Source of the DNA: Adhaeribacter arboris
GTDB taxonomy: Bacteria > Bacteroidota > Bacteroidia > Cytophagales > Hymenobacteraceae
Direction of reading: 5' to 3'
DNA: 64,000 nucleotides
Assembly (NCBI RefSeq): GCF_003023845.1
Contig: NZ_PYFT01000001.1
Coordinates: forward strand, 5,022,001-5,086,000
Below are positions 12,910-29,364 of this stretch, in pieces; position 1 is the stretch's first letter; each line of letters opens with the position of its first letter. Under the pieces are notes generated by a model that saw nothing but the letters and a program-made list of their open reading frames with translations, was not told where the DNA came from and ran no database searches. The position numbers were made by a program, and so were the translations under genes.

Positions 12910-14922
12910 TTAAGTCTTCTTTTTTTGGGCGTTTTGGGCACTGGCTTTAGAACCTTTGGGTAACGTAATCTTCCAGATATTAGCTTCCGACTGGCCGGCA
13001 TATTCCATAATGTAAACTTCGTTCCCAACCATTACCGCATCTACCGGCGCGTTAAAATTATCGACCAAACGGTACGTTTTAACAAAGTAATTATCTGTGG
13101 CTGGGTCGTAAGTTAATTTTAGATGCAGCAAATCTCTTCCTTCTTTCCGGAGTGGGTTATTAGCGCCCGCTCTGCCGCCACCCGTGTAACGCATTACAAA
13201 TCCATCTCCTTTAAATTCATCGGAAAGTACTTTTTTGGTATCAAATAATATGGCGAGGGGAGAGGAATGGGCATTAAAAGTACTAACAGCCTGACCGGTT
13301 ATATTGCCATCGGTAACTTTGCCGGAAGCAATATCGCGGTATTCGTTCGCATCTGGTCCTAAGTTTTGTACGCCGGGCGTAAATTTTACGCCGGCCGGCG
13401 GTTTCGGGAAATTAGGGTCGTCGTGGAAATATTTTACAATCCAGGCGTGAGCAGTTTTGCTGATGAAAGGGTCAGTTTCGGGGCTAGGATTCCAACCGGG
13501 ATATTGCTGCGGATTATCGATGCCGCCAAATATCCACGGGAAACCATAATGGCGACCTTGCCGGAGCCAGAACATATCTTCGGGCGCATCATAATCCGGC
13601 GAATTAGACACCCCGAATAAATTACCGTTGGGGTCAAATGCCATGTCAAATACATTCCGCACTCCTTCGGCAAAAAGATACCCCTCGGCTTTTAACTTTT
13701 GTACATCGTCCGGCAGTAACAGGTTTTTTGCGTCTACCGGGAAGCGGTAAATTTTAGCGGTTAAAGCATTATCGCGGGCGTTCGGGTAGGCGCCCCGGTT
13801 ATCCTGTACTTCGCCGTGGTCGGTGCGGGCGCCGGTATTTACGTAAATATATTTCCCATCCGGACTTACTTCCAGCGCATTCCAGCCGTGGTCGAAAGTA
13901 GTGGCATTGGTGCCGTATTCTACGGTGTTAAATACTTCTGTTAAAGTAGGTTTGCCACTGGCATTTAAATCGAAGCGTACCATACGGCCAGTGGTGCCTT
14001 TGCCATTATTTACGCTGGTATTGCCGCACAAAAACAAACTGTTATGATGAAAAACGGCTCCTTGCAAACGCGTTATGCCATGGTCTGCCGCCGAAAATAT
14101 TTTCTGGTAACGGGCATCTTTTTTATCGATGTTGCTGATTTTGTACACGTCGCCTTCAAAAGTATTATACCAGAATTCGCCGGTTTGCGGATGCCGGAAC
14201 AAACGAATGGCCGAAGGACCAATCTTCATCACGTGTGAAACTTTAATATCCGGCCGTAAAGCCGTAGGAGTCTTAATTTCTGGTCCAGCTTTCTGCGCTT
14301 CAGCGGCGGGCGTATTCGCCGTGGAAGCGGGCGGAGTGGCGGGGGCAATATTTTGGTTCGGTTCCGGTGATTTAGCCGGGGCAGCGGCAGTTTTTGTTTC
14401 TTTAGGATTCGTAGAGCTTGAAGCTGGTTTTGTGGCCGGTTTAGAGGCAGAAGTAGTAGCAGGAGTAGCAGCTGTGGCGGAATTATCTACCGTTTCGCCT
14501 AATTTCCGGAGGTAAGCTACTAATTGCCATCTTTGCTCTTCCGATAAAGATTCTTTAAAAGGAGGCATGTTGCCCCGGCCTTCCGATAATTTCCAAAAAA
14601 GAGCGCCATCGCTTTGCTTTTGCACCACCGGCGAATGGAAATTGGCCGGCTTTATTCCCATGGCACCCCCAGCAGCGCCATCGCCGTAGCCATTTTCGCC
14701 GTGGCAAGGAGAACAATACAGCACAAAAAGCTCTTCGCCCTGCGTTAAGGTAAGGGGCTCCACCGGATAAGGATTTTTTATTTTATCGGCGGTAGGTGGT
14801 GCTACCCACCGGCCGCCATCCTGAAAGAGGGAAGAAGGATCCGTAACCGAAATGTAGGACGACAGACCCCCCATACAAATACTGGCAGCTAATAAATACT
14901 TGGTTAAGGTTGGTTTAAGCAT
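12910..14922 (-). CDS. Cytochrome c domain fused to a glucose/sorbosone dehydrogenase-like beta-propeller
   Basis: 670 residues, exported. After an N-terminal hydrophobic segment there is a class I cytochrome c domain: haem site C70-S-P-C73-H74 and a distal-Met region GNMPPFKESLSEEQRW. Then comes an Ala/Pro/Thr/Lys-rich linker (about 148-215) and a propeller beginning RPDIKVSHVMKIGPSAIRLF. The propeller matches the protein at 18990-20495 closely (for example GRMVRFDL, FDHGWNALEVSPDGKYIYVN, GARTDHGEVQDN). Glucose/sorbosone dehydrogenase-like propellers oxidise sugars with PQQ, and the cytochrome would accept the electrons. PQQ use and the substrate are not shown by sequence. It is the last minus-strand gene of the catabolic region. 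Confidence 0.85.
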   Translation of the reverse strand: MLKPTLTKYLLAASICMGGLSSYISVTDPSSLFQDGGRWVAPPTADKIKNPYPVEPLTLTQGEELFVLYCSPCHGENGYGDGAAGGAMGIKPANFHSPVVQKQSDGALFWKLSEGRGNMPPFKESLSEEQRWQLVAYLRKLGETVDNSATAATPATTSASKPATKPASSSTNPKETKTAAAPAKSPEPNQNIAPATPPASTANTPAAEAQKAGPEIKTPTALRPDIKVSHVMKIGPSAIRLFRHPQTGEFWYNTFEGDVYKISNIDKKDARYQKIFSAADHGITRLQGAVFHHNSLFLCGNTSVNNGKGTTGRMVRFDLNASGKPTLTEVFNTVEYGTNATTFDHGWNALEVSPDGKYIYVNTGARTDHGEVQDNRGAYPNARDNALTAKIYRFPVDAKNLLLPDDVQKLKAEGYLFAEGVRNVFDMAFDPNGNLFGVSNSPDYDAPEDMFWLRQGRHYGFPWIFGGIDNPQQYPGWNPSPETDPFISKTAHAWIVKYFHDDPNFPKPPAGVKFTPGVQNLGPDANEYRDIASGKVTDGNITGQAVSTFNAHSSPLAILFDTKKVLSDEFKGDGFVMRYTGGGRAGANNPLRKEGRDLLHLKLTYDPATDNYFVKTYRLVDNFNAPVDAVMVGNEVYIMEYAGQSEANIWKITLPKGSKASAQNAQKKKT

Positions 14923-15094
14923 TTATACGATCAAAGTTTGTAACTCTTGCTATTTTTTAATTCTGGCAACTACCCATGTAAGGTTTATAAAACAAACACC
15001 GGCCCATTCATGAGGGATGGTCTAATTTATCCTATGTACTTCGACGAAAGTAATTTAGACTACTATTTAAAGTAGCTTACTGATTACCAAATAA

Positions 15095-15123
15095 TTATTA
15101 GTTGAGCAACGAACAACTAATAA
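15095..15123. terminator. Intergenic stem-loop
   Basis: TTATTAGTTG and CAACTAATAA form a perfect 10-bp stem around a 9-base loop, between the SelA-like gene (stop 15189) and the cytochrome/propeller gene (start 14922). It is A/T rich with no long T run, so it may be a weak terminator or an RNA-stabilising hairpin. The 266-bp gap suggests the two genes can be separate transcripts. Confidence 0.45.
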
Positions 15124-15188
15124 CTACTTATATTCCGGTACTTACTCTATCGTTTTCTCATTTACAAAAAGAAAGTCCCCTGTAATTG

Positions 15189-16874
15189 CTAGCTGGATAA
15201 TGGCGGCCCAATAGGTACGAATATGGTCTGGTGCGAATCCGGGTAAACGTATTTCTTGGCGGTAAATTTCGCCGTTAAATATTCGCCCATGTGGATGTCG
15301 CCGGACATGGTATCGCCGGAAACGGTACCGGAAAAAGTAAAGTTGATGCCATCACCGGGCGCCTGGTACACGCTCCGAAATTTTATTTGATCACCTTCAA
15401 TAGAACCCGATAAATTGCGTACATCAAAGTCTCCTTTGTGCGAACCTTGCAGCCAGTTGCCATCCTGTTTTTCAATAAACAAAGTATGCTGGCTCTGGCT
15501 GGTAAAAAAGTTAATGGTAGCATCCCAACGACCGGTAAGATTGGTGCTCGGCGCTTTCATGGTAGTAATTCGCGGCGGGCGCTTCCGGGAAAGTACGTCG
15601 TAAATCCGATCGGCCACAATTTTATCGTTGCCGGGTTGCATCATCCAGGAACTAATGGAAAGACCCGTTACATTCGGATCGGGAACGCCATTGCGGTTAC
15701 CGTTATAGGTACTCAGGGCAATGCGAGGTTTGGTGCTGGATAGTTCGTTCGCTAGTTCTATCCCGATAAGGTTTAATTTAGCCGGATCCCAGGAAATAAT
15801 TAGGGTAGGCGTGCGGTTAGCTAAGCCGGTTGGTTCTTTCACGGTGGTCTGAACCCCCTCAATTTTTTTAACCCGATTGGCAATAGTATCTAAATAACCC
15901 ATCCAGGTTTTGTATTCTTTTTCGTGGTCGCGTTTTACCCAAGTTTCCACGGCGGCTAACATGCCCATCACTTCTTCGCGACCCACTTTATTATCGCGGC
16001 CCGGTCCGTGGTGCGGCGCGCTGGCTTGCCAGGCAGCCATTAAGATATCTTTTTTACCCAGCAGTAAACCGGCGCATTGCGGCCCTCGAATCCCTTTTCC
16101 GCCGCTGTACGCTACCACCGAAGCGCCTTTCTGCAAGTGTACATTCGGAATAGTCAGAATCTCCGCGGCTGCATCTACCAGAATCGGAACATTTTTAGGT
16201 TTGGCAATCGCCGCAATACTTTCCAGCGAAAGCGGTCCGGAAGCCGGTAAGCCATCGGCATTCGCGTAAATCATGGCAGTACGCGGGCTAATGGCGCTAC
16301 GCAGTTCATCCTCCGAATCTACCATTATAATTGTTACCCCAATATTGCGGATTGCGTGGTCGTACACGTTCCGGGAATCTTTCGGGATAATTACTTCGGT
16401 CTTGTCGAAACCGGCTAAATTGGGAATCCGGATTAGTTTTTCCGGATTGCCACCGGTTACACACGCCGCCGTAACGTGTTTCATACCGGCCGCACAACCC
16501 GACGAAACCATCCCCCATTCGGCCCCGGTAATTTCGGCAAGCCGCTTTCCTACGCCCAAGGCTAGTTCATCTAATTGTACAAAATAACGACAAGCATATT
16601 CCATGGCTTCCCGTACTTCGGGCAACTCTACCGAAGCGCCAATAATAGTGAAGGTACCACGGCAATTAATAATCGGTTCCACTCCAATAGATTGGTAAAT
16701 ATTGGTTCCGGCTTTTAGCGGTCCCATTACTTCCGGACTTTCGGTACTTTTCATGTAATCTAGTAAATCAAATTCGGTTGGCGTAGCCGAATGCGCCATA
16801 GCCGATTGTCCGGCGGCTACTACGCCGCTAATCGGAAGAACGGATAAGCCTTTTAAAATATCTCTGCGTTTCAT
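15189..16874 (-). CDS. Exported SelA-like PLP-dependent enzyme with C-terminal beta domain
   Basis: 561 residues. The N-terminus (MKRRDILKGL, then a hydrophobic stretch ending near QSAMA) is a Tat-type signal. The core is fold-type I PLP enzyme of the SelA/D-glucosaminate-6-phosphate ammonia-lyase group: SSGCAAGMKHVTAA near 125, ILVDAAAE near 231, and the Schiff-base Lys in YSGGKGIRGPQ (K260). Relatives catalyse beta-elimination with ammonia release. After about residue 455 there is an extra beta-rich domain (LTGRWDATINF to FTAKKYVYP) absent from typical SelA-like enzymes. The neighbouring amidohydrolase belongs to a family often encoded beside SelA-like genes. Export of a PLP enzyme is unusual. 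The substrate is unknown. Confidence 0.85.
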   Translation of the reverse strand: MKRRDILKGLSVLPISGVVAAGQSAMAHSATPTEFDLLDYMKSTESPEVMGPLKAGTNIYQSIGVEPIINCRGTFTIIGASVELPEVREAMEYACRYFVQLDELALGVGKRLAEITGAEWGMVSSGCAAGMKHVTAACVTGGNPEKLIRIPNLAGFDKTEVIIPKDSRNVYDHAIRNIGVTIIMVDSEDELRSAISPRTAMIYANADGLPASGPLSLESIAAIAKPKNVPILVDAAAEILTIPNVHLQKGASVVAYSGGKGIRGPQCAGLLLGKKDILMAAWQASAPHHGPGRDNKVGREEVMGMLAAVETWVKRDHEKEYKTWMGYLDTIANRVKKIEGVQTTVKEPTGLANRTPTLIISWDPAKLNLIGIELANELSSTKPRIALSTYNGNRNGVPDPNVTGLSISSWMMQPGNDKIVADRIYDVLSRKRPPRITTMKAPSTNLTGRWDATINFFTSQSQHTLFIEKQDGNWLQGSHKGDFDVRNLSGSIEGDQIKFRSVYQAPGDGINFTFSGTVSGDTMSGDIHMGEYLTAKFTAKKYVYPDSHQTIFVPIGPPLSS

Positions 16875-17827
16875 ATAATCATTTAAGATGAGGCAATTTT
16901 CTGATTTAAGTATGGGGACTGTAAGTTACGGGACACAAGTATCAAGAGAGTAGGTAGTATTTTCTTAAGCTAAGCAACTGAATAGTAATAATTTCTTGCA
17001 ATAATAGTGGTATTGAGTATAGTAAATTGTTTTACCTGGGTACTTATTTAAAAGAGAAAAATACTTTGCTCGCTGATTCGTAGCTTAAAGCAAAATACAA
17101 AATTTAATGGATAAACAAATGCCCGATTCAATAAAGAAAGTATCGGAGTTCCTGCTACTAAGTAAAGAGACACAAGTATCAAGATATTAGATATTAGACT
17201 TTTTAATAATTAACCCATTAATTAGGAACAGTTTATTTCAGCAATCTCGACAGCAGGTATATTTAATGGATTTTGTCCTGTGACTTATTCATTTAATTTA
17301 TATACTCCTGTTGTTTGCACGCACCCGCTTGGTAATTGCTTTTAAATTAGTTGTAGGTAAAAGTCCAAAAAATCAATTTTGCAGGTACCTACTATTTTTA
17401 TTGTTCGGTAAGCAGCTATTTGACTTTGCAGGTAATTACTTCTCTTTTGAGTAACAACTATTCTAGCTTATTCTAATTTTTTACTCAGCTGAAAGCCGGT
17501 GCCTTTTAATTCAATAATTCTAACTTCTTTCTATATGGAGACACCTAAGGATGCAGTTCGGGTGAAAGGAAATTTAAATTATTTGATAAAAAGGAAATCT
17601 GCGCGGTTTAATGAATAGGACCAATTTATTGTATGTGGCAGGATGGTAATTAAATTTAAAGATAGAGGCGGCACAAACCAGCACAAAAAGGTGAAGTCTA
17701 TTGGTATTTATAATTTAAAAATAACAGAATAATGGAACATGATTTATTCTTATTCCGGTAAATTAAAATTCAGAAATTTACCAGAAAATCCTCTTATCTG
17801 TTTTGTGTTACATCCAATAAATAGTTT
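16875..17827. other. 953-bp intergenic region, no gene recognised
   Basis: A/T-rich sequence between the SelA-like gene and the sigma factor, with no convincing ORF on either strand. The phrase GACACAAGTATCAAGA occurs twice (near 16930 and 17170). It must hold the promoter of the SelA-like gene, since the sigma-factor gene ends far upstream. No hairpin or operator stands out. Confidence 0.5.
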
Positions 17828-18412
17828 TTAGCAGAACGGATTATCCAACAGCAGGAAGGCTAATAAAGTAAAAGTTTCCGGATTGAGGCGCAGGCGGAGT
17901 AATTGCATGGCCCGTTGTTTTTGCGTTTTAACGGTATTAATAGAAATGCCCAAGGTAGCCGCAATTTCGTGGTTTTTCATGCCTTCCAGGTAGCCCATCC
18001 GGGAAATGCGCTGGCAACTTTCGGGCAGCGTTTGAATGGCCTGGTGAATTTCCGCTAATACTTCTGATTGAATAATGTAATTAATGACAGTAGTTTCTTC
18101 TACTTCAGAAGGGGCAAAATTAAATTTGTATTTTTCTACTACCTTCTCGTGACGAACGATGTTTAAGCTGGAGTTTTTAACAATGGAGTATAGGTAGTTT
18201 TTGATAGCAACTGAGTTTAAAGTAATTTCTTCTTTATGGTCCCAGAATTTAATAAATGCTTCCTGTACAATATCCTCGGCTTTTGGTTTGTCCGCTAAAA
18301 TCTGAAAAGCAAAATAAACCAACCTGGGATAAAAGCTTTTAAAAAATTGCTCGAAAACTTCTTCTTTGGATAATTCTGCCAGGTTAGCTTCAGATTTTAG
18401 ACTTAGTTTCAT
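17828..18412 (-). CDS. ECF RNA polymerase sigma factor (FecI/RpoE type)
   Basis: 194 residues. Region 2 is seen in FFKSFYPRLVYFAFQIL and AEDIVQEAFIKFW. Region 4 is seen in IQTLPESCQRISRMGYLEG and NHEIAATLGISINTVKTQKQ, a helix-turn-helix that would read the -35 element. It belongs to the type that works with FecR anti-sigma factors and SusC-type receptors. Here it is about 9.7 kb from the fecR gene rather than beside it, with the metabolic genes in between. It probably drives the SusC/SusD operon and perhaps the enzymes when the receptor is occupied. That is inference from the family and location. Confidence 0.92.
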   Translation of the reverse strand: MKLSLKSEANLAELSKEEVFEQFFKSFYPRLVYFAFQILADKPKAEDIVQEAFIKFWDHKEEITLNSVAIKNYLYSIVKNSSLNIVRHEKVVEKYKFNFAPSEVEETTVINYIIQSEVLAEIHQAIQTLPESCQRISRMGYLEGMKNHEIAATLGISINTVKTQKQRAMQLLRLRLNPETFTLLAFLLLDNPFC

Positions 18413-18989: not shown

Positions 18990-20495
18990 CTATTTCGACT
19001 TTACAAACTCCGTTATCTTAGCTTTCGAATCTTTGGGCAAATTTATTTTCCATAGATTAGCTTTATTCCGGCCACTGTATTCAATTACGTATACCTCATT
19101 GCCCACTAGTACAGCATCCGTCGCTTCTTTAAATCCGTCTACTAAGCGGGTCGTTTTTACATAATAGTTGTCGGCCGTTTTATTATAGGCTAAATCCAGG
19201 TGCAATAAATCAGCTCCTTCCTCGGTGAAGGGTTTCATTAAACTGGAGCGGGCACCTAAAGTATACCGAATAACAAAGCCATCGCCTTTTAAATCAGTGG
19301 CTAATACTTTCTTTTTGTCAAAAAACAAACCTAACGGCGAAGCATGCGGGGTAAAGGTGCTGATAGTTACTCCGGTTTGGTCGCCGTCTACTATTTTACC
19401 GGCGTTGGTCCGGTACTCGTTGGCCGCTGGCCCTACGTTTTGTACGCCCGGGGTAAATTTTATGCCTTCCGGTCTTTTTGGAAAATCGGGGTCATTGTGA
19501 AAGTAGCGCACCTGCCAGGCGTGGGCAAATTTGTTAATGAAAGGATCGGTTTCCGGGCTGGGCTGCCAATCAGGATATTGCTGCGGGTTTTCGATGCCGC
19601 CCATCACCCACGGAAAACCGTAATGGTGCCCTTCCCGGATCCAGAACATATCTTCGGGCATGTCATAATCCGGCGAATTAGAAACCCCGAATAAGTTGCC
19701 TTCGCCATCGAAAGCTAAATCGTACGCGTTGCGAATACCTTCGGCGTAGAGGTAGCCATCAGCCTTTAACTTGGCGGCATCGTTGGGTAAAACTAAATCA
19801 TGGGCATTAACGGGAAAACGAAAAATATTGGCAGTTAGAGCACCGTTGCGGGCATTCGGGTAAAGTCCGCCGTTATCCTGTACTTCGCCGTGGTCGGTAC
19901 GGGCTCCACTGTTAACGTAGATGTATTTTCCATCCGGGCTAATTTCCAAAGCGTTCCAGCCGTGGTCGAAAACGGTTTTGTTAGTGCCGTATTCCACGGT
20001 ATTAAATACTTCCGTCATTTTTGGTTTGCCAGCAGGCGAAATATCCAACCGTACCATTCTGCCTTTTGTGCCTTTATTATCATTAACGCTGATATTGCCG
20101 CATAAAAACAAACTATTATTTAAAAAAATGGCTCCTTGTAAACGAGTAATGGCGTGGTCGGCCACCGAAAATACTTTCTGACTGGTAGGAGTAGTTCCTT
20201 TGTTGTTTTTTATTTGGTACACATCGCCTTCAAAAGTAGTATACCATAAATCCCCGGTATTAGCATGATAGAGTAAACGCACAGCTTGAGGTTCTACTAG
20301 CATCACGTGCGTTATTTGTATGTCCGGCCGCAAAGCCCGCAATGATTTTACGGCCGGAGCTTTGCCGTCCTGAATATTAGGAGTTGTTCTTGCGGGACTG
20401 GAGGGTTTAATATCCTGGGCAATTGCCCAAACGGGTAAAGCCCACACGGCCCCGAAAAAACAAACTCTGGTTAATAAAGTAGAAAAAAGAGTCAT
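18990..20495 (-). CDS. Exported glucose/sorbosone dehydrogenase-like beta-propeller protein
   Basis: About 501 residues from the Met at 20495, which begins a good signal peptide (MTLFSTLLTRVCFFGAVWAL, cleaved near IAQ). In-frame ATGs at 20561 and 20537 would put charged residues first, so I prefer the inner one. The propeller runs from ALRPDIQITHVMLVEPQAVR to the end and is a close paralogue of the propeller half of the protein at 12910-14922, but it lacks the cytochrome c domain and linker. The two paralogues bracket the SelA-like and sigma genes, suggesting local duplication. It is probably a periplasmic oxidoreductase or binding protein. PQQ dependence is not evident from sequence alone. 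Confidence 0.85.
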   Translation of the reverse strand: MTLFSTLLTRVCFFGAVWALPVWAIAQDIKPSSPARTTPNIQDGKAPAVKSLRALRPDIQITHVMLVEPQAVRLLYHANTGDLWYTTFEGDVYQIKNNKGTTPTSQKVFSVADHAITRLQGAIFLNNSLFLCGNISVNDNKGTKGRMVRLDISPAGKPKMTEVFNTVEYGTNKTVFDHGWNALEISPDGKYIYVNSGARTDHGEVQDNGGLYPNARNGALTANIFRFPVNAHDLVLPNDAAKLKADGYLYAEGIRNAYDLAFDGEGNLFGVSNSPDYDMPEDMFWIREGHHYGFPWVMGGIENPQQYPDWQPSPETDPFINKFAHAWQVRYFHNDPDFPKRPEGIKFTPGVQNVGPAANEYRTNAGKIVDGDQTGVTISTFTPHASPLGLFFDKKKVLATDLKGDGFVIRYTLGARSSLMKPFTEEGADLLHLDLAYNKTADNYYVKTTRLVDGFKEATDAVLVGNEVYVIEYSGRNKANLWKINLPKDSKAKITEFVKSK

Positions 20496-20654
20496 AGAAT
20501 GATGAAGGGGATTTTCTAAACTTCGCGCGTAAACCATTTCATTCAATACCAGATTAAGCAATTTTTTTAAATTCTTTCGTTGGGAAAGCTTTGCATTCCG
20601 CTTACTACTTAAAAAATTCGCTTCCTAAAATTGCTAGTGGAGCAATCCACCATT

Positions 20655-21935
20655 CTAATGCGTAGCGGGTCGGGAAGTGGTAGCCGTACGCGGTAAAACC
20701 ACGGGAGTAGTAATGCCATTTAAATTATAAACGACTTTACCGTCCCGGATAGTCAATTCGCACTCCAGTTTTTTATCCGTGTCAATTTTATAGCCGGTAT
20801 AGTCAAACAATCCAAATTTACCTTTCCGCACGCCTAGTACCGCCAAATCGGCAGGAGCGCCAACCGATAAATGACCTAGTTCTTCGTGTTTAATTACTTG
20901 GGCGGGAGTCCAGGAACTGGCTTTGATTACGCTTTGTAAGTCCATGCCCATCGCTAGAAACTTAGACATGGTAGTGAGCATATCTTTCATGGACTCGTTC
21001 ATGCTGCCAATATGAATATCGGTGCTGATAGTGTTGGGGTAAAATTTGCTGGCTAAGGCCGGTACCGCTTGAGAAAAGGCAAAGCTAATCCCACCGTAAC
21101 CCACGTCAAACACAATTCCGCGCTTTTGCGCTTCCCACACGAAAGGCTTTACTTTTTTAGTGTTGATATCCACAATAGCTTCGCGGCTGGCCAATTGGCC
21201 AAAAGCATGGGTAAAAATATCGCCCGGCCGAAGGTGCTTAAAAAATAATTCTTCGATAGATAGGGGTGGGTTGCTACCGCCAAAATCAATCATTACCGGG
21301 AGTCCGCCCGCTAACTTACCCGCTTCCACGGCCCGGTCTACCGGGGTCCAATCCGGACCTTCGAAGTGCGCTACTTTGAAGCCTACAATGTAATCTTTGT
21401 ACTGGCGGGCGGTATTCGCCGATAATTTAGAATCCATGTCGTTGGTATTTTGCTCGTAATTGCCGCCCCGCATGCCTTCGCCGGAAATATTTAAAAACGC
21501 CAGTACCCGCGTTTTAGAAGCATCAATGGTTTGTCTTTTATAAATAGGAAAAGTGCGCCAACCCGGACTGCCCGCATCTACCACCGTCGTTACGCCGTTC
21601 CGAAAAGTAAAGCCGTCCGGGGGAAAAGCGTTAGGACCATTCATATACGTCTGGTCCATGTTGGTGCCGTAAAAATGATGGGTATGAATATCAATCAAGC
21701 CTGGGGTCACGTATAATCCTTTTGCATCCACTACCTGAAGGCCTTGCTTCGGATCGATGTTTTTCGCTACCAGGGCTATTTTACCTTCTTTAATGGCCAC
21801 ATCCATCGGGCCATCAATATTATTCTTCGGATCAATTACATGGCCGCCTTTTATAACCAAGTTATAAGGTTGATTCTGAGCCAATAAAAGAATGTGTGCT
21901 AGTAGTAAAAAGGTTGTAAATAAAGTTTTTAACAT
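20655..21935 (-). CDS. Exported amidohydrolase/deacetylase (EF_0837-like family)
   Basis: 426 residues with a Sec signal (MLKTLFTTFLLLAHILLLAQ). It has the dihydroorotase-like amidohydrolase core: VIKGGHVIDPKNNIDG at the N-terminus, metal motif GLIDIHTHHFYG (near 86-90), VTTVVDAGSPGW, a Lys in IVGFKVAH that may be the bridging ligand, FTHAFG, and ISTDIH as the Asp site. It ends with the small beta domain LSVGAPADLAVLGVRKGKFG. The EF_0837/AHA_3915 group removes N-acyl groups or opens imides and is often encoded next to SelA-like genes, as here. The signal peptide suggests it acts in the periplasm, unlike well-known members. The substrate is unknown. Confidence 0.86.
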   Translation of the reverse strand: MLKTLFTTFLLLAHILLLAQNQPYNLVIKGGHVIDPKNNIDGPMDVAIKEGKIALVAKNIDPKQGLQVVDAKGLYVTPGLIDIHTHHFYGTNMDQTYMNGPNAFPPDGFTFRNGVTTVVDAGSPGWRTFPIYKRQTIDASKTRVLAFLNISGEGMRGGNYEQNTNDMDSKLSANTARQYKDYIVGFKVAHFEGPDWTPVDRAVEAGKLAGGLPVMIDFGGSNPPLSIEELFFKHLRPGDIFTHAFGQLASREAIVDINTKKVKPFVWEAQKRGIVFDVGYGGISFAFSQAVPALASKFYPNTISTDIHIGSMNESMKDMLTTMSKFLAMGMDLQSVIKASSWTPAQVIKHEELGHLSVGAPADLAVLGVRKGKFGLFDYTGYKIDTDKKLECELTIRDGKVVYNLNGITTPVVLPRTATTSRPATH

Positions 21936-22552: not shown

Positions 22553-23014
22553 CTACACGTAGGCAATGCAATCCATTTCCACGAGCGAATCGCCGGGTAC
22601 CCCGCCGTAGGTGGCAACAGTAGTCCGTACCGGAGGTTTGCTGCCAAAACGACCTTTGTACACTTCATTCATGGCTTTGTAATCGTTTAAATCCGCGAGG
22701 TAAACGTTTACTTTTAATACCTTCTGCATCGAAGAACCTGCTTTGGTTAACTCGGTTTCCAGTTCTTTTAATACGTGTTCGGTATGCGCTTTAATATCAC
22801 CCTCGAAGTGCGCTCCTTTACCCGCTACAAAAATTAAATTACCGTGCTTGGTAGAACCGGAAAATAAGGGAACATCCTGGAAAGTGGTGATATTAAAGGC
22901 TTCTTTTTCTTCACTTTCTAACTCTTTGGCTTTGGCAACTAAACCAAACCCGCTAATACCAGCCACCGAGGCAAGTAATTTTTTTAAGATGGATCTTCTA
23001 GGCGTCTTGTTCAT
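22553..23014 (-). CDS. Exported RidA/YjgF-family protein
   Basis: 153 residues. The N-terminus (PRRSILKKLLASVAGISGF, then AKA) is a Tat-type signal, unusual because RidA is normally cytosolic. The core matches the family: PLFSGSTKHGNLIFVAGKG, HTEHVLKELETELTKAG, VLKVNVYLADLNDY, the substrate-binding Arg in PPVRTTVA, and the final VEMDCIAYV. RidA hydrolyses reactive enamine/imine products of PLP enzymes to the ketoacid and ammonia. It lies 48 bp after susD, in one likely operon. An exported SelA-like PLP enzyme is encoded nearby, a sensible partner. The pairing is inference. Confidence 0.9.
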   Translation of the reverse strand: MNKTPRRSILKKLLASVAGISGFGLVAKAKELESEEKEAFNITTFQDVPLFSGSTKHGNLIFVAGKGAHFEGDIKAHTEHVLKELETELTKAGSSMQKVLKVNVYLADLNDYKAMNEVYKGRFGSKPPVRTTVATYGGVPGDSLVEMDCIAYV

Positions 23015-23062: not shown

Positions 23063-24595
23063 CTATTTATCCCACCAAATCCGGGTTAAAAAGGTGTTGC
23101 CGCCTAACCGGGTAATTGCTTCCTGCAAATTTTCCGGATTTAAGCTTTCCTCGATGGAAGGATATAACATGCGCCGGAAAATAGTGCCGTTGGTGGCATT
23201 ACCCGGAACGTTGTTCGGAATTAATATTGGATAACCGGTACGCCGCCAGTTCGAAAATACTTCCTGCGAATCGGGGTACAGGGAAGCCCAGAACTGCGTA
23301 TGAATTTGCTCCATTTGCTGTTCTATAGTGCCGGCAGCATTAAAAGGATGGGCGGCTAAATACGTATTGATGCGGGTATCGGAAATAACCCCGGTACTTC
23401 CCCAGGCGCTCCATTGTTTCATGGCGGAGCGTACGCCGTTGTTATATAACTGCTCCGTGGTTTCGCCGGTATACCAGCCGCGTAAAGAAGCTTCGGCGAG
23501 TAAAAAATTTACTTCGGCGCTGGTCATTAATAATACCGGCGTATCTAAGCGCAGCAAAGTGGCTGGGTTTGGCTCGGAATACGTGACAAAATCGGCGGGT
23601 TTGGTCTGGAAATTCTGCGGCATGCCTTTTTGAATAGCGGCGGTGGTATCGGCTTTGCCGTTTTGCCAGACTACCGAAAGTACTCCCAGGCGCGGATCGT
23701 TATTATTTTTTAGAAAATTTATAAAAGTATTGGCGTATTTGCCGCCCTCGCGGTTGGTGCTGCCATTCGCCGAAGAATAATCGCTGGATAGGTAAGCGTT
23801 AGCCAAGGGGTTTTGATTAATGGCCTGACCACCGGCCACAAACATGATCTGGGCAATATCGGCATCCGTGGTAATTACGCCGCCCGCAATGGCTTTTTTT
23901 ACCCAGGTTTCGGCCAAGGCTGCATCTACTTTGGTCAGGCGCATTCCCAGGCGCAGCATCAGAGAATAGGCGAATTTTTTCCATTTTTCCATATTGCCAC
24001 CGTAAATAACATCGGCGGCGCCGAAAGTTGGTTTAGCCGCATCGAACTGGCTGGTAGCTTCTTCAAGTTCTTTGAGCAGGTCTTTGTAAATATCTTCTTG
24101 CTTATCGTATTTGGGTTTTAGAATGCCTTCGCGGTAACCTAAACCCGCCTGACTGTACGGAATATCACCGTATAAATCGGTAACGCGGTGGTAGCTGTAA
24201 GCCCGCCAGATACGCGCGGTAGCTAATTTATTCGCGTTAATCGGGTCGTCCTGAATACTTAAAATAACATCGGTAATTTCCTGAATTTCGTTGGTGTAGG
24301 CGCTGGTAAATACTCCGTACGGAGCCGAACCTTGCAGGAAAATGTATTTAGAACCAAACCCGGCCACTTCGTTAAAACTGGTCGTGTACTGCATGGCCCC
24401 ATCGGCTCCGCCCAAGCGGTTGCGGGCGCCATCGTATAAAGCCTTGCTGAACATAAATTCCGGAACTACTTTTTCGTAAGCGTTGGGGTTCACGTTCATT
24501 TCTTCAAAGCCATCGTCGCAGGCCGTAACCATGCACAAAGAAGTAAAGAGGGTAATGCTGGATATAATTGAGGATAATTTGCTATTTATTTTCAT
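23063..24595 (-). CDS. SusD/RagB-family outer-membrane lipoprotein
   Basis: 510 residues with lipobox VTAC (Cys 26) followed by DDGFEEMNVNPNAY, the usual N-terminus of SusD-like lipoproteins of the second SusD family. Helical TPR-like segments include IWRAYSYHRVTDLYGDIPYSQ and MTSAEVNFLLAEASLRGW. It ends with a family-typical NVPGNATNGTIFRRMLYP region. SusD proteins sit on the SusC barrel and capture the ligand. It follows susC by 18 bp. The ligand cannot be read from sequence, but the downstream genes suggest an amino compound or derivative rather than a polysaccharide, since no glycosidase is nearby. Confidence 0.93.
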   Translation of the reverse strand: MKINSKLSSIISSITLFTSLCMVTACDDGFEEMNVNPNAYEKVVPEFMFSKALYDGARNRLGGADGAMQYTTSFNEVAGFGSKYIFLQGSAPYGVFTSAYTNEIQEITDVILSIQDDPINANKLATARIWRAYSYHRVTDLYGDIPYSQAGLGYREGILKPKYDKQEDIYKDLLKELEEATSQFDAAKPTFGAADVIYGGNMEKWKKFAYSLMLRLGMRLTKVDAALAETWVKKAIAGGVITTDADIAQIMFVAGGQAINQNPLANAYLSSDYSSANGSTNREGGKYANTFINFLKNNNDPRLGVLSVVWQNGKADTTAAIQKGMPQNFQTKPADFVTYSEPNPATLLRLDTPVLLMTSAEVNFLLAEASLRGWYTGETTEQLYNNGVRSAMKQWSAWGSTGVISDTRINTYLAAHPFNAAGTIEQQMEQIHTQFWASLYPDSQEVFSNWRRTGYPILIPNNVPGNATNGTIFRRMLYPSIEESLNPENLQEAITRLGGNTFLTRIWWDK

Positions 24596-24613
24596 GATTC
24601 GTGTTCCTCCTGA

Positions 24614-27600
24614 TTAAAATTTAACCATAAAATTTAAACCCATGGTGCGCGTGCGGGGCAAACCAAACGATTCAAAACCTTGGGCATTGCCGTTGGTAAA
24701 GCTGGCTTCCGGGTCAAAATTGTCGGTTTTCCGGTACAGAATGGCTAGGTTACGCGCCACAAAAGAGATAGAAGCACCTTGTAACTTGATAAATGGAATT
24801 TTAGCAGCCGGAATATTATAAGTGAAAATAACCTGACGCAGCTTTACAAAACTGCCGTCGTGTAAAAACACATCGGAGTAGTTCTTGTAGTTATCGTACC
24901 ATACCCGTAAATCCTTTACGGCTACCGTACGGGAATAAGGAGCGCCTTCCGGCGTTACGCCACTAACCTCCAAGCCATTTTCCCGGCCGGGTAAAGTCAT
25001 TTTAAGCAAACCCATCCGGATGCCGTACACTTCCATCATCGAGAAAACTTTATTGCCGAATTTCCCGTCGAGCAAAACATTTAAGGAGAAATTTTTATAG
25101 GTAAACTCGTTGGTTAAGCCCATGGTAAGCGGGGCGACGCCGTTGCCCAATTGTTTTAAAGGCGAGCGCACCGGAAAGCCGGATTTAGGATCGAAAATGA
25201 TATTGCCGTTAGCATCGCGGGCCATGGTATAACCGGTAATTACCCCGTAAGGCTGACCTACGGTACTGTTTACGTTGGCGTAGTTGTTCACCGTAGTAGC
25301 CATCTGAATAGTATTTAAACCTTCGGCTAAGCTTACTACCTCGTTTTTATTGTAAGCAAAATTGTAGCTGGTATTCCAGGCGAAGTTGTTGGTTTTAACG
25401 GGGGTGCCGGTTAGTAAAGTCTCAATTCCTTTATTGTACATTTCGCCCACGTTTAAAATTATGTTCTCAAAACCGGAAGTAGGGCTAATAGCGGTAGATA
25501 CTATATCATTGGTGGTTTTGCGGTTGTAAAGCGTGAGGTCTAAACCTAAGCGGCGGTTAAAGAATTGTAAATCCAAGCCTACTTCGGCGGTGGTAGAGGT
25601 TAAAGGACCTAAAACGGGATTAGAAATAGTAGTGCTGGTTACGTCCTGCAACGGCACGGTACTACTGGGCACCATGCTGTACGATAAATTAATCTGGTAC
25701 GGATTAGGTCCGCCACCGCCTACCTGGGCCCACGAAGCCCGTATCTTGGCTAAGCTAATAACCCGCGGTAATTGCAAGGCTTGCGATAAAATAAAGCTAC
25801 CACCAACCGACGGATAAAAAATACTGTTGTTCTTCGGGCTTAAAGTCGAAAACCAATCGTTACGGCCGGTAAAAGTTAAGTAAGCAAAGCCTTTGTAATC
25901 TAAATCGACGGAGCCGAAAAGGGAGTTAGTAGCGGTTTCGGAGTAGCTCTGCGATTGTGTGGTATTGGTTAAGTTAGAGAAAGTATAGAAAAAAGGAATA
26001 ATAAACTGATTACCGGCTAAATTATAGCTCCGGATGTAATTGTTACGGCGGTTGGCACCCGCTAATACATTCAGGCCAAAGTTTTCGCTAAGGTTGGTGT
26101 TGTAATTGGCGGTAACCATGGCGTTGGTTTCGCTGGATTCGTTCGTGAACTGGCTCATTTCGCCTTTGCTGCCCGTGGTGTAAATAGTACCGGTAGGAAT
26201 AACCGACTCGAAATTGTAATTACTAAAATCGCGGGCTACCTGGCCTTTAATGTATAAGTTGTCGAGCAAATTAAACTGAATGCTGGCCTGCCCGATAAAG
26301 CGATTTTTGGTATCGTTATTCTTAAATTTATTTACCACAAAATAAGCGTTGGTAGCTACCCCGGCATCGTTCCAGGGAGTTTCCATGCCTGCCTCGTTGT
26401 AACCGGGGCTTAACCAGCGCATATCTACAGTATTGGCAATCATGTAAGGCGTCCAGTTGGGATTACCCGTTGCATCACCAGCACTCGGGCGGTTATGCGC
26501 TTTTTCGTTGTTGTACTGAGCTAAACCTTCAATGCTGATTCTTTTACCAATTTTGCTGTTCAGGCTTAAAGTAGCGTTTTTGCGGTCGTAAGTAGAGTTA
26601 GGTAAAATGGCTTTGCTGTCGAGGTTAGATAAAGAAAGCCGGAAATTCAAAGCTTCGGTGCCGCCGTTAAAAGCCAAGGTATTGGTAAAGGTTTTACCGG
26701 TCTGGTAGAAATTTTTAATGTTATTCTTCTGCGCCACGTAGGGGTGGGTTTTGCCATCGGCGGCAATAAACTCCGAACCATCCATCTTCGCTCCCCAGGA
26801 CCAACGGCCGGTTTGTACGGCTTGTGAGGCATCGGCGGGTTTACGGCCTTCCAAACCCTGACCATATTCGTATTGCCAGTCCGGAAAAACAGCCACGTTT
26901 TCGGCGGTAAAAGTCGAGTTGTATTGTACGCCAATGCCTTGCTGCGCCCGGCCTTTTTTAGTGGTAATTAAAATCACCCCGTTCGCTGCCCGGGAACCGT
27001 ACAAGGCCGCCGCGGTACCGCCTTTTAACACGGAAATACTCTCAATATCGTCGGGGTTAATACCGGCAATGCCATCGCCGCGGTCCACGTTATTGCCCCC
27101 GCCGTTGGTAGTAGCGCTACCGCCCGGGGTAGAGTTATCCAGGGGCATTCCGTTAATGACGTATAAAGGCGTGTTAGAACCCGCCAAAGAACCATTACCC
27201 CGGATAATTACTCGGCTAGAACCTCCCGGACCGGTAGATAAACCCGTGGCATTTACGCCGGCAATTTTACCGGTTAACGCATTGGCAATGTTGTTTTCGC
27301 GGGCTTGAGTAAATTCATCACCTTTTACTTCCGAAACGGAATAAGCCAAGGCTTTCTTTTCCCGGGAAATACCTAAGGCAGTTACCACTACTTCGTTTAA
27401 CACCTTTTCATCGGCAGCCATGGTAATAGTAATTTCGGCCCGGCCATTTACCGCTACCGTTTGATTCGCATAACCAATGTAGGAAAAAATGAGACTGGCA
27501 TTTTCGGGAGCGTTAATCGAAAAATTACCCGTGGCATCGGTAACCGTACCTTGCGTAGTTCCGCTTACTTGGATGCTTACCCCCGGCAAGGGCTCGCCTT

Positions 27601-27631
27601 TCTCGTCCTGCACTTTTCCTTTTACATCCAT
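24614..27631 (-). CDS. SusC/RagA TonB-linked outer-membrane receptor, main body
   Basis: 1005 residues from MDVKGKVQDEKGEPLPGVSI. It has the carboxypeptidase-regulatory-like domain (1-85), the plug with the TonB-box-like region LNEVVVTALGISREKKAL and SVLKGGTAAALYGSRAANGV, and a 22-strand-type barrel ending LGLPRTRTMGLNFMVKF-like. It has no signal peptide of its own. The signal and STN domain are encoded immediately upstream in another frame (27634-28020), so a functional receptor needs a -1 frameshift or a corrected base. The ATG lies 2 bp after the upstream stop. It is followed by susD. Confidence 0.9.
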   Translation of the reverse strand: MDVKGKVQDEKGEPLPGVSIQVSGTTQGTVTDATGNFSINAPENASLIFSYIGYANQTVAVNGRAEITITMAADEKVLNEVVVTALGISREKKALAYSVSEVKGDEFTQARENNIANALTGKIAGVNATGLSTGPGGSSRVIIRGNGSLAGSNTPLYVINGMPLDNSTPGGSATTNGGGNNVDRGDGIAGINPDDIESISVLKGGTAAALYGSRAANGVILITTKKGRAQQGIGVQYNSTFTAENVAVFPDWQYEYGQGLEGRKPADASQAVQTGRWSWGAKMDGSEFIAADGKTHPYVAQKNNIKNFYQTGKTFTNTLAFNGGTEALNFRLSLSNLDSKAILPNSTYDRKNATLSLNSKIGKRISIEGLAQYNNEKAHNRPSAGDATGNPNWTPYMIANTVDMRWLSPGYNEAGMETPWNDAGVATNAYFVVNKFKNNDTKNRFIGQASIQFNLLDNLYIKGQVARDFSNYNFESVIPTGTIYTTGSKGEMSQFTNESSETNAMVTANYNTNLSENFGLNVLAGANRRNNYIRSYNLAGNQFIIPFFYTFSNLTNTTQSQSYSETATNSLFGSVDLDYKGFAYLTFTGRNDWFSTLSPKNNSIFYPSVGGSFILSQALQLPRVISLAKIRASWAQVGGGGPNPYQINLSYSMVPSSTVPLQDVTSTTISNPVLGPLTSTTAEVGLDLQFFNRRLGLDLTLYNRKTTNDIVSTAISPTSGFENIILNVGEMYNKGIETLLTGTPVKTNNFAWNTSYNFAYNKNEVVSLAEGLNTIQMATTVNNYANVNSTVGQPYGVITGYTMARDANGNIIFDPKSGFPVRSPLKQLGNGVAPLTMGLTNEFTYKNFSLNVLLDGKFGNKVFSMMEVYGIRMGLLKMTLPGRENGLEVSGVTPEGAPYSRTVAVKDLRVWYDNYKNYSDVFLHDGSFVKLRQVIFTYNIPAAKIPFIKLQGASISFVARNLAILYRKTDNFDPEASFTNGNAQGFESFGLPRTRTMGLNFMVKF

Positions 27632-27633
27632 AT

Positions 27634-28020
27634 TTAATAGAGCCGCTTTGGGGGAGCATTTCTAGGTTTGATAATAATAGTTTTATCCAGCAAGGTATAG
27701 GTGAGAGGTTGTCCTTCCAGGATAGTGTTTAAAGCTTGTTTCAGCGATACGGCTTTTAAATGTAAACTTACCGGTTTGGCCGTTTTTAATAATTCGTTGT
27801 TGTAGATAAATAAATAGCCGCTTTGCTGATGAATTATTTCAAAAACTTTTTCCAGGGAGGTGTTTTTTTTCGTAATGGAAATACTTTGAGAAGAGGCTTT
27901 GGCACTTACTTGCAGAAAGGCTACGGTGAGCAGCATTACTATTAGTTTCATAAGTAGAAGCTTTTTGAAAGAGTGCACATAGGGATTTTGTCTGCTCTTG
28001 CAGGGTAATTTTACTTTCAT
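27634..28020 (-). CDS. Signal peptide and STN domain of the SusC receptor, separated by a frameshift
   Basis: 128 residues. A signal peptide (LLLMKLIVMLLTVAFLQVSA, ending KASSQ) is followed by an STN (secretin/TonB N-terminal) domain: ITKKNTSLEKVFEIIHQQSG, YLFIYNNELL, AVSLKQALNTILEG, and YTLLDKTIIIKPRN. Such domains sit at the N-terminus of SusC receptors that signal to a FecR anti-sigma factor, which is the gene just upstream. The frame stops at TAA (27636-27634) just before the SusC body begins in the -1 frame. The canonical slippery heptamer C CCA AAG is four codons before the stop. Either programmed frameshifting, a recent mutation, or a missing base in the C5 run explains the split. Confidence 0.88.
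   Translation of the reverse strand: MKVKLPCKSRQNPYVHSFKKLLLMKLIVMLLTVAFLQVSAKASSQSISITKKNTSLEKVFEIIHQQSGYLFIYNNELLKTAKPVSLHLKAVSLKQALNTILEGQPLTYTLLDKTIIIKPRNAPPKRLY
27646..27652 (-). promoter_or_regulatory. Slippery heptamer C CCA AAG at the STN/SusC junction
   Basis: In the STN frame the mRNA reads CCC CCA AAG CGG CTC TAT TAA. The heptamer fits X XXY YYZ. After a -1 slip the codons become CCC AAA GCG GCT CTA TTA AAT ATG GAT, continuing into the SusC body with no stop. Function is not proved. One extra C in the run would also fuse the frames. Confidence 0.5.
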
Positions 28021-28088
28021 AAATTTGCATTAGGATGAATGGATTTAGTACTGGGAATTATTAAGTCTACTGGATTAGTCCTGTTTAT

Positions 28089-28121
28089 ACCAGTAGCGTT
28101 GGCGCGCTACTGGTCTTTTTT
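28089..28121. terminator. Stem-loop between fecR and susC
   Basis: ACCAGTAGCG and CGCTACTGGT form a perfect 10-bp stem around TTGGCG. On the plus strand it is followed by TCTTTTTTT, like an intrinsic terminator, but no plus-strand gene precedes it. On the minus strand it lies in the 114-bp gap between the anti-sigma gene and the SusC gene, where it could attenuate, process or stabilise mRNA. Confidence 0.5.
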
Positions 28122-28134
28122 TAAGCTAATCTTT

Positions 28135-29364
28135 TTAAATGTTATCTGGTTGAATAATTACTTTTTTACCCTCCGTTTTAAAGTGAATATCGCCGGATAG
28201 CTCCAGCATTTTTAAGATTTTGGCCACTTCGGTTTTCCGGGAAATAATGCCGGTAAAATGTTGATTCTGCAGGCGACCGGGATTTACAAACTCTACTCCG
28301 TACCATCTTTCCAGTTGCCGCATAATAATTTTCAGCTCCGCATTCTGAAAATGGAAAAAGCCATTTTTCCAGGCTACGGCCGCGTTCACATCTACTTTTT
28401 CTACCTCAATGGTTGTACCGGCTTTGGCCTGGAAACCGGGTTGTAAAATTTTATGGCTGCTGGTGTTGCTAACTTTAACCGAACCTTCCAGTAAGGTAGT
28501 GTTGATGGAATTTTCCTCGGGATAAGCCATTACGTTAAAATGCGTTCCCAGTACTTCCACGGTGGTGCCCTTGGCTTTTACCAGAAAAGGTTGGTGTTTA
28601 TTCTTTGCTACTTCAAAATAAGCTTCGCCGGTTAACGCTACCACGCGCTTCTTTTCCGTGGAAAAATCGGAAAAACTTAAAGTAGATGCCGCGTTTAACC
28701 ACACCTGGCTGCCATCGGGTAAAGTAATTTTATATTGACTGCCGGTTGGGATAGTTAAAGTAGTAAGGCCTTTTCTATCCGTATTGTGGCTGGCCTCAGG
28801 CGAAAATGAAAAATGTAATTCTTTGTCCTGCTTCGTAATCCAGGTACCGTTTTTATGCCAGATAGTGCCATTTTTTTGATTATCTAAATCGATAACCGAA
28901 CCGTTAGATAAAGTAAGCTGGGCTTTATTTCTATCAACCTTACTAGCGGGTATTATAGCCTTTGGTTGATGGCTAGCCATCGGGGTGGCTGGATTTCCGG
29001 CATTTTGGGTTAAACTAATTTTATAAGCGAATCCTCCCGCCAGGCAAACCAGTAAAAGAACTGCCGCGTATTTCAGGTATTCAGAATTTTGCCAAAAGCT
29101 AATTTTCTTTCTTGGATTCTGAATTTTGGGCGCTACTTTTTGCCAGGCGGCTTCTGTATCCACCGAAGCAAGAAAGTCTAAGGGCTCTTGTATTTGGTCT
29201 TCCTCTTTTAAGCTTTCGGCAAATTGTTGGTTCGTTTCATCTTCGGCTAACCATTGCTCTACTTTTTCTCTTTCCTGGGTAGTTAATTCTCCTTGGTAGT
29301 AGCGCAAAATCAGGTTTGCTTTTTCAAAAATGCGCGGATCCAATGGTTGTTCCGTATTTTCCAT
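28135..29364 (-). CDS. FecR-family anti-sigma factor
   Basis: 409 residues. The cytoplasmic N-terminus (about 1-90) has the sigma-binding region (ILRYYQGELTTQEREKVEQW). One membrane helix follows (YLKYAAVLLLVCLAGGFAYK, near 92-112), then a periplasmic FecR domain (TLTIPTGSQYKITLPDGSQV, LTGEAYFEVAKNKHQPFLV, VEVLGTHFNVMAY) and a C-terminal DUF4974-type domain (FHFQNAELKIIMRQLERWYG). This domain meets the STN domain of the SusC receptor. It is first in the receptor operon. Its sigma factor is probably the one at 17828-18412. A repeat element lies upstream. Confidence 0.93.
   Translation of the reverse strand: MENTEQPLDPRIFEKANLILRYYQGELTTQEREKVEQWLAEDETNQQFAESLKEEDQIQEPLDFLASVDTEAAWQKVAPKIQNPRKKISFWQNSEYLKYAAVLLLVCLAGGFAYKISLTQNAGNPATPMASHQPKAIIPASKVDRNKAQLTLSNGSVIDLDNQKNGTIWHKNGTWITKQDKELHFSFSPEASHNTDRKGLTTLTIPTGSQYKITLPDGSQVWLNAASTLSFSDFSTEKKRVVALTGEAYFEVAKNKHQPFLVKAKGTTVEVLGTHFNVMAYPEENSINTTLLEGSVKVSNTSSHKILQPGFQAKAGTTIEVEKVDVNAAVAWKNGFFHFQNAELKIIMRQLERWYGVEFVNPGRLQNQHFTGIISRKTEVAKILKMLELSGDIHFKTEGKKVIIQPDNI

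Follow-up and report, generated by a model that had tools for sequence, protein, structure and literature searches.

The cluster at 12910-29364 of the window (the whole 64,000-nucleotide stretch of Adhaeribacter arboris DNA that was analysed) is rather likely to encode a pathway that processes an N-acetylated amino sugar outside the cytoplasm; the best candidates for this sugar are N-acetylglucosamine and/or N-acetylgalactosamine derived from chitin or glycans. The exported set probably oxidises the acetylated amino sugar and also deacetylates and deaminates it there, whereas the counterparts studied so far are intracellular. Every gene that the earlier note had named on a single strand (amidohydrolase, SelA-like, RidA, propeller, cytochrome c, SusC/SusD, FecR and sigma genes) was found there, all on the minus strand and mostly with family matches:

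12910..14922, minus strand, cytochrome c fused to a paralogous propeller (670 aa), candidate dehydrogenase/electron acceptor (PF13442, 45.9 bits)
15189..16874, minus strand, Tat-exported SelA/DgaE-like PLP enzyme, candidate amino-aldonate ammonia-lyase (TIGR01437 and DGL likeness, PLP Lys260)
17828..18412, minus strand, ECF sigma factor, internal to the cluster (TIGR02985, 155.9 bits, cut-off 126.4)
18990..20561, minus strand, exported beta-propeller (523 aa), candidate PQQ-type aldose dehydrogenase (model m96d47f4d4079)
20655..21935, minus strand, exported amidohydrolase, candidate amino-aldonate N-deacetylase (PRK09237, 451 bits, cut-off 371)
22553..23014, minus strand, RidA-family protein with Tat signal (PF01042, 73.3 bits, cut-off 27.3)
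23063..24595, minus strand, SusD-like surface lipoprotein, SusD-like_2 (PF12771, 307.1 bits)
24614..27631, minus strand, SusC/RagA TonB-dependent receptor, remainder (TIGR04056, 667.6 bits, cut-off 368.25)
27634..28020, minus strand, SusC signal peptide and STN part, separated by a frameshift (PF07660, 53.1 bits)
28135..29364, minus strand, FecR-type anti-sigma factor (PF04773, 76.3 bits; PF16344, 74.7 bits)

The named genes form a conserved module. The earlier note had staked its reading on their co-occurrence in relatives, and this was strongly borne out: SelA-like and amidohydrolase genes occur in the same 29 of the 291 genomes of the order, with zero discordant genomes (a SelA-like call being a match of E 4.1e-21 or better; the other 83 of the 112 matching genomes have weak matches, the best at 2.8e-8), and Tat-RidA is present in 28 of these 29 module genomes and in 0 of the 262 others. 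Fisher values for this co-occurrence ignore kinship; by genus, the comparison is 11/115 against 0/104 others. The SelA-like gene lies within 12 kb of the amidohydrolase gene in 28 of the 29 genomes (median gap 75.5 bp) and within 12 kb of the RidA gene in as many, and all 35 RidA matches in the order have a SelA-like gene at no more than that distance. This linkage typing covered 50 SelA-like rows (after exclusion of two weak matches, in G029 and G069, that are the second parts of split genes), 62 of 70 amidohydrolase rows (the eight lowest were excluded), 35 RidA rows and 33 dehydrogenase rows. Among the best 80 of 572 relatives, an amidohydrolase is in reach of the SelA-like gene in 40/57 Bacteroidota, 5/16 Acidobacteriota (one of the five is a weak 27% match) and 1/7 other loci; these context counts favour close relatives, many loci are short, phylum was assigned by hand, and at least one locus is present twice (L050, L108), so that the rows are not all independent.

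The exported SelA-like/amidohydrolase/RidA triplet is also found in Streptomyces niveus (L160) and in an Acidobacteriota locus (L158). This recurrence, with the identical phyletic sets and the tight linkage, argues against ordinary SusCD uptake genes and exported enzymes that are only loosely grouped and share no pathway, a reading which we regard as highly improbable even though the intergenic gaps, the internal sigma gene and the solitary occurrence of some members in other genomes would suit it. Transcription as one operon is unlikely, because the sigma gene is internal and far from FecR and three intergenic gaps measure 577, 617 and 953 bases; the sigma gene has the same position in the congener L036. 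A search of Rfam over 12000-36500 gave zero families at gathering score, and the promoter and terminator scans were about at shuffle level (28 vs a mean of 32.5; 23 vs 24.1) and are therefore uninformative. SusC and SusD are adjacent and both above cut-off, as in a SusC/SusD polysaccharide-utilisation pair. The SusC gene listed in the earlier note is present, with its TIGR04056 match, but it is broken by a frameshift that leaves the signal peptide and STN part in a frame of their own; inspection of the DNA showed it split, whereas SusC of L036 is a single intact 1135-aa frame, to which the remainder in the window is 94% identical.

The Sec and Tat signals read by the earlier note are present, and they recur across homologue rows. 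By a home-made heuristic (an N-terminal RR motif or a hydrophobic N-terminus; some rows are in both the SelA and the SelA_short set), an RR motif was scored in 40/40 RidA and 140/150 SelA-like rows, and a hydrophobic N-terminus in 110/114 amidohydrolase and 10/12 propeller rows. Among other proteins of these loci, the hydrophobic N-terminus was scored in 36/38 dehydrogenase, 12/13 SMP30, 14/14 PF10282 lactonase and 9/10 RraA rows, in just 2/7 GSDH-type rows and in 0/8 kinase/aldolase rows. Besides Bacteroidota, Acidobacteriota loci and Streptomyces also show the export signals, and TatC is encoded in the A. arboris genome.

The SelA-like enzyme scores under the family cut-offs (TIGR01437, 148.9 vs 385.3 bits; NF047797, 132.8 vs 600), and its model (m4a864ea92f02) has an additional C-terminal beta domain. 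The PLP lysine is Lys260, a position occupied by K in 151/151 homologue rows. Foldseek on the model placed Cap15 (8t7j, E 4.4e-24) slightly above DGL (E 4.0e-23), as expected if the protein were not a lyase but belonged with the O2- and PLP-dependent enzymes, as Cap15 does, and RidA hydrolysed the resulting imine. This alternative seems improbable to us, since by sequence the nearest solved enzyme is DGL (7lc0, E 1.5e-30; Cap15, 2.4e-27), the short-type profile likewise prefers DGL (E 2.3e-46 vs 8.9e-33), and the kinase and aldolase neighbours described below point to a 3-deoxy-2-keto acid, which is the product of elimination.

The His-His pair of DGL is absent from 151/151 SelA-like rows (a single His stands in the loop in 27/151, the alignment being gapped there), and the loop of the window enzyme at this site reads YANADGLPASG. 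By eye, in one HMMER alignment, the short-type profile showed no arginine at the aligned positions; the window enzyme has arginines a few positions off (NRTP, PRI). The DGL mutant H163A sets the enamine free, according to the excerpted account in PMC9529869, and such release by a His-less enzyme would account for the accompanying RidA. In 28 of 29 genomes, an exported RidA is present together with the lyase-like enzymes that lack the His pair. Absence of the pair does not always go with RidA, because some His-less genes have neither a signal nor RidA in reach (L126, L141, L143, L149) and the long-type SelA-like gene stands alone in ten loci of one genus. In the window RidA, in which PF01042 is matched above its cut-off, the conserved Arg is present: that of VRTTV aligns with ARVAV of PH0854, and we take it to be the catalytic Arg. 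The amidohydrolase matches PDB 8je0 (E 1.9e-43) and falls under the cut-off of the EF_0837 model (229.1 vs 432.15 bits).

The two window propellers are 62% identical, and in L044, L055, L066 and other loci cytochrome c and propeller are separate genes. The model of the 523-aa propeller (pLDDT 64.9) has soluble PQQ glucose dehydrogenase (5min, E 4.1e-13) as its best PDB fold. This tentative likeness to the soluble PQQ glucose/aldose dehydrogenases would be one of fold and not of sequence: neither propeller has a Pfam propeller match, their TIGR03606 scores (22.3 and 20.1 bits) are far under 434.55, and a profile of 12 propellers had zero sequence matches among PDB chains at E 0.1. PqqE is below cut-off in the own genome (best 71 vs 381 bits), which is a weak test, as 14/14 control genomes are also below it. 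In relatives, a dehydrogenase-cytochrome c with at least 605 bits to the L055 protein occurs in 24/29 module genomes and 0/262 others, a line set once the gap below it was apparent (the next score is 555.7 bits; 33 rows kept); at E 1e-100 its relatives occur in 98/291 genomes, so that the specificity arises only at the chosen bit line. Five of the 29 module genomes, the window's included, have no dehydrogenase at that line. Percent identity does not split the groups, two outside matches reaching 57% over part of their length. The dehydrogenase of the relatives has a PF07995 match of 41.3 bits. A dehydrogenase paralogue at 35180-36460 of the window was rejected as part of the module, because its group is broad and occurs in many genomes that lack the module.

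Lactonase, kinase and hexosaminidase genes are all absent from the window cluster. Beside the set in relatives, a KDG-kinase-type PfkB and a KDPG aldolase were found in L131, DgoK and a KDPG aldolase in both L129 and L133, a KDG/KDGal-kinase-type protein in L160 and a KDPG aldolase in L128. Kinase or aldolase genes thus occur in 5/124 relative loci, many of which are short, and a KDG- or KDGal-type kinase in 4/124 (in L131 and L160, the kinase-type protein scores below its NCBIfam cut-off). Lactonases (PF08450 and PF10282) and GH20 also stand beside the set in relatives, and the Adhaeribacter aquaticus locus L083 has CBM9, a GH18 chitinase and a PQQ dehydrogenase. Chitin as the only substrate is too narrow a reading, given that GH18/GH20 occur in 3/124 loci and DgoK-type kinases in two; the latter also point to galacto-configured sugars.

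The earlier note had proposed both N-acyl amino acids and amino-sugar acids as substrates. The second proposal fits the kinases, KDPG aldolases, lactonases, aldose-type dehydrogenases and chitin-type hydrolases, in some relatives, while simple N-acyl amino acids are less favoured by the neighbour genes. A triplet that degrades simple N-acyl-D-amino acids (e.g., N-acetyl-D-serine/-threonine) by deacylation, elimination to a 2-aminoacrylate-type enamine and clearance by RidA, with propellers and cytochrome serving a separate purpose, is in our view unlikely. The triplet chemistry by itself fits it, the serine-derived enamine being the classical RidA substrate, and a D-threonine-aldolase-like gene, judged from the start of its translation, lies close by in L058. 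OngC also accepts D-serine and D-threonine (PMC9537276, in excerpt). However, such a function would leave unexplained both the aldose-type dehydrogenase tied to the module at the drawn bit line and the relatives' lactonases, KDG/KDGal kinases, KDPG aldolases and chitin-type hydrolases.

For the amino-sugar route, we infer the substrate, the order of steps, the activities, the electron flow and the import as follows. SusCD would carry the sugar or an oligomer across the outer membrane, and the propeller, as a PQQ-type aldose dehydrogenase, would oxidise C1 and pass the electrons to its cytochrome c. The lactone may then be opened by an exported lactonase, as encoded in relatives, and the acetyl group taken off by the Sec-exported amidohydrolase. 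The Tat-exported SelA-like PLP enzyme would eliminate the C3 hydroxyl as water to give an enamine, and the end product outside the cytoplasm would be a 2-keto-3-deoxy-sugar acid, which may be imported, phosphorylated and cleaved in the cytoplasm. More tentatively, and rather doubtfully, the route could be wholly extracytoplasmic and phosphate-free, with dehydrogenase-cytochrome c, lactonase, deacetylase, a proton-donor-less ammonia-lyase dependent on exported RidA, the exported RraA-type aldolase of some relatives splitting the keto acid, and a BASS/SBF symporter taking up pyruvate or the keto acid. If so, the reactive enamine would be both made and cleared outside and could not reach cytoplasmic PLP enzymes.

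EF_0837/COG3964 amidohydrolases adjoining SelA-like genes present the same enzyme pair as the window. To our knowledge, these pairs are cytoplasmic and come without RidA, SusCD or a dehydrogenase. The window set resembles the cytoplasmic Ong and Dga routes in its working and is a member of neither. In the Ong pathway of Pseudoalteromonas prydzensis (OngB, OngC, OngD, KdgK; excerpts of PMC9537276), an N-acetyl amino-aldonate is likewise deacetylated and deaminated to KDG, a RidA protein takes part (OngD, which is essential) and uptake is TonB-dependent, but OngB and OngC are predicted to be cytoplasmic whereas the window enzymes have export signals. Furthermore, OngB is of the D-aminoacylase type and the window deacetylase candidate of the PRK09237 type (PpOngB chains, E 2.1e-4 over residues 21-87), OngC is a fold type III PLP enzyme and the window lyase candidate is SelA-like, the KDG kinase is absent from the window cluster, and Ong begins with LPMO-oxidised chitin while the window route probably begins with a dehydrogenase. 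The Dga pathway of Salmonella also uses a PLP ammonia-lyase of the same superfamily on an amino-aldonate (DgaE, i.e., DGL), but there the substrate is phosphorylated in PTS uptake (PMC9529869, in excerpt), and DGL retains His162/163, which the window enzyme, with its Tat signal, does not have.

Oxidative chitin cleavage yields oxidised amino sugars in quantity (PMC12017989, as excerpted). If our reading is true, oxidised amino sugars are broken down outside the cytoplasm in Bacteroidota and in members of some other phyla, by enzymes that are unrelated to those studied so far. The role of RidA in the Ong route, where it is essential, is given as unknown in the excerpts of PMC9537276; the present reading would make testable what RidA does there and why DGL retains His163.

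We searched 291 genomes of the order with three cluster proteins, counting matches at E-values of 4.1e-21 or better for the SelA-like PLP enzyme, 1e-60 for the amidohydrolase and 1e-30 for the Tat-type RidA (Tat-RidA), and the genome sets were compared by Fisher's test, in which kinship among genomes is ignored. Strong SelA-like matches were found in 29 of the 291 genomes, the amidohydrolase occurs in the identical 29 with zero discordance either way, and Tat-RidA is present in 28 of the 29 and in none of the remaining 262, so that the co-occurrence in relatives set as a check by the earlier note is borne out. The 29 genomes represent 11 genera and 5 families; within the window's own family, among the sampled genomes, the amidohydrolase was found only in two genomes of its own genus. 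SelA-like and amidohydrolase genes lie no more than 12 kb apart in 28 of the 29 genomes (median gap 75.5 bp), the exception being G069, where they sit on separate contigs. The SelA-like and RidA genes are likewise within 12 kb in 28/29 genomes, and all 35 RidA matches have a SelA-like gene within that distance. A glucose/sorbosone-family dehydrogenase (PF07995) fused to cytochrome c, scoring at least 605 bits to the protein of one relative locus (L055), is present in 24/29 genomes and 0 of the 262 others; the 605-bit line was placed at a score gap because 98 of the 291 genomes hold some relative of this dehydrogenase at E 1e-100. The SelA-like, amidohydrolase and RidA genes form a module; the observation is real, and its conservation reaches well beyond Adhaeribacter.

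In the window, all main genes of 12910-29364 lie on the minus strand, in the transcription order FecR, split SusC, SusD, Tat-RidA, amidohydrolase, beta-propeller, ECF sigma factor, SelA-like PLP enzyme and cytochrome c-propeller fusion. The gene families and single strand listed previously for this region were correct. The entire order, internal sigma gene included, is kept in the congener (L036), where SusC is one intact frame of 1135 aa (14366-17773), whereas the window has two frames, with a frameshift at 27631-27634 between the STN part and the plug/barrel part; this may be a natural mutation or a sequencing error. ECF sigma and FecR genes are usually neighbours; here they (17828-18412 and 28135-29364) are about 10 kb apart with pathway genes between them, as in the congener. 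Elsewhere in the window, arsenic-type methyltransferase, GNAT and ArsR-like frames, judged from translations, adjoin a cation P-type ATPase (8132-12647), and two adjacent ferritin-like (PF13668) proteins (40210-41871) lie near a phytochrome histidine kinase (37782-40019).

The SelA-like protein matches DGL (DgaE of the Salmonella Dga pathway, PDB 7lc0), the nearest solved enzyme by sequence, at E 1.5e-30, and the PLP lysine is conserved in 151 of 151 homologue rows. A Foldseek search placed Cap15, an O2- and PLP-dependent enzyme, slightly ahead of DGL for the structural model, which counts against the lyase reading; that the protein is itself a Cap15-like enzyme is unlikely. For the proposed amino-aldonate ammonia-lyase, the position of the carboxylate-binding Arg226 of DGL is Lys in 149/151 rows, and the His162-His163 pair was found in none of the 151 (numbering from the aligned chain, by which the PLP lysine is 213; the paper writes 217, PMC9529869). 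A lone His occurs somewhere in the loop in 27/151 rows, with none in the window protein. No Arg counterparts of the DGL phosphate arginines 301, 332 and 346 were found in the short-type alignment, read by eye; in the window protein, arginines stand a few residues from the aligned sites. The long SelA-like type carries an extra all-beta C-terminal domain (15192-15557 in the window), which has no Pfam match and is absent from the short type. According to the available text of Phillips and co-workers, DGL H163A retains full activity but releases free enamine, and RidA is named as the kind of enzyme clearing such products (PMC9529869). By analogy, a natural lyase lacking the His pair, accompanied in 28/29 genomes by a putatively exported RidA, would fit the chemistry of DGL H163A, although His-less homologues with no RidA in reach also occur and count against it.

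Export was called by our own N-terminal rule (hydrophobic N-terminus or RR motif). A hydrophobic N-terminus was found in 110/114 amidohydrolase, 36/38 dehydrogenase, 10/12 propeller, 12/13 SMP30, 14/14 PF10282 and 9/10 RraA rows, and the RR motif in 40/40 RidA and 140/150 SelA-like rows; kinases and KDPG aldolases, which served as internal control, gave 0/8 for the hydrophobic N-terminus. Counting against export, the rule was passed by just 2/7 GSDH-type and 1/2 Streptomyces-RraA-like rows. Twin arginines recur at the SelA-like and RidA N-termini of the Streptomyces niveus and Acidobacteriota loci, and TatC is encoded in the window's genome. In Gemmatimonadota, Latescibacterota and Caldilineaceae, four loci (L126, L141, L143, L149) encode SelA-like proteins in which no twin-arginine signal was found by eye, and none of the four has a partner in reach. 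Judged from its N-terminus, a second RidA-family protein of the window's own genome (L002, C1 4918205-4918558) bears a Sec-type signal peptide.

Neighbour genes were surveyed in 20-kb relative loci and 80 named loci (the best 80 of at least 572 relatives), with minority counts taken over 124 loci. Among these best 80, the amidohydrolase is in reach in 40/57 Bacteroidota, 5/16 Acidobacteriota (one a weak match) and 1/7 others. Amidohydrolases of COG3964 favour N- or O-acetyl acids of (R) configuration. Recurrent extra genes encode SMP-30/gluconolactonase (PF08450), 7-bladed lactonase (PF10282), CBM9-like (PF06452) and RraA-type aldolase (PF03737) proteins, an SBF/BASS symporter (PF01758) and SusCD. 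A minority of loci (5/124) hold a kinase and/or aldolase. L131 has a KDG-kinase-type PfkB below cut-offs (NF041332, 209 of 440 bits; NF041633, 495 of 700); its KDPG/KHG aldolase is above cut-off (PRK07114, 368 of 275). L129 has a 2-keto-3-deoxygalactonokinase (PF05035, 172.8 bits) and a KDPG aldolase above cut-off (TIGR01182, 175.3 of 156), along with a galactonate-type transporter under cut-off (TIGR00893, 250.8 of 395); close relatives of these occur in L133. A KDG/KDGal-kinase-type protein (NF040938, 205.8 of 400) occurs in Streptomyces niveus (L160) and a KDPG-aldolase relative in L128; two KDPG-aldolase-family genes lie elsewhere in the window's genome. GH18/GH20 genes, also a minority (3/124), comprise GH20 in L054 (Pfam) and L058 (similarity, 32%) and a GH18 chitinase that, with a PQQ dehydrogenase bearing cytochrome c, adjoins the set in Adhaeribacter aquaticus (L083), the nearest named record among the matches listed (SelA-like 77%).

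Several further arrangements were seen in relatives. In ten loci of a single genus (g57; L039, L041-L043, L045-L050) the long SelA-like gene stands alone, and the short type lies in a fuller cluster elsewhere in the same genomes. Another RidA-type protein (PF14588/PF01042 in L147 11724-12293) occurs in eight loci (L147, L137, L139, L148, L109, L114, L068, L058), six of them with no Tat-RidA in reach, and has a hydrophobic N-terminus in 7/7 counted rows. Twin-arginine DUF362-like proteins are encoded close to the long SelA-like gene in seven loci, L112 (5304-8537), L113, L116, L117, L121, L132 and L161, the single one scanned matching PF04015.

The nearest fold to the model of the 523-aa propeller (pLDDT 64.9) is soluble PQQ glucose dehydrogenase. 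No sequence match supporting a PQQ dehydrogenase assignment of this propeller was found, and a search of the window's genome, run without a positive control, gave no PqqE above cut-off; because of these two results, oxidation at C1 would be the weakest step of the route for the window itself. A glucose/sorbosone dehydrogenase-like protein (PF07995) is encoded at 35180-36460; its group is broad and has no tie to the module.

In the Ong route, as presented in the available text of PMC9537276, GlcNAc1A is deacetylated and deaminated to KDG, KdgK takes part, OngB and OngC are predicted to be cytoplasmic, and the RidA, OngD, is essential, its role being reported as unknown. The window set shares the pathway logic and the RidA with Ong, but the deacetylase families (PMC12017989) and the PLP fold types differ, and the Ong enzymes are predicted cytoplasmic whereas the window set carries export signals. 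The Dga route, in the available text, has a phosphorylated substrate (PMC9529869). No published exported version was found in the literature searched, which covered only a minority of subscription journals and no bioRxiv preprints. It is a well-supported prediction that the cluster functions in amino-aldonate catabolism relocated outside the cytoplasm and carried out by different enzymes.
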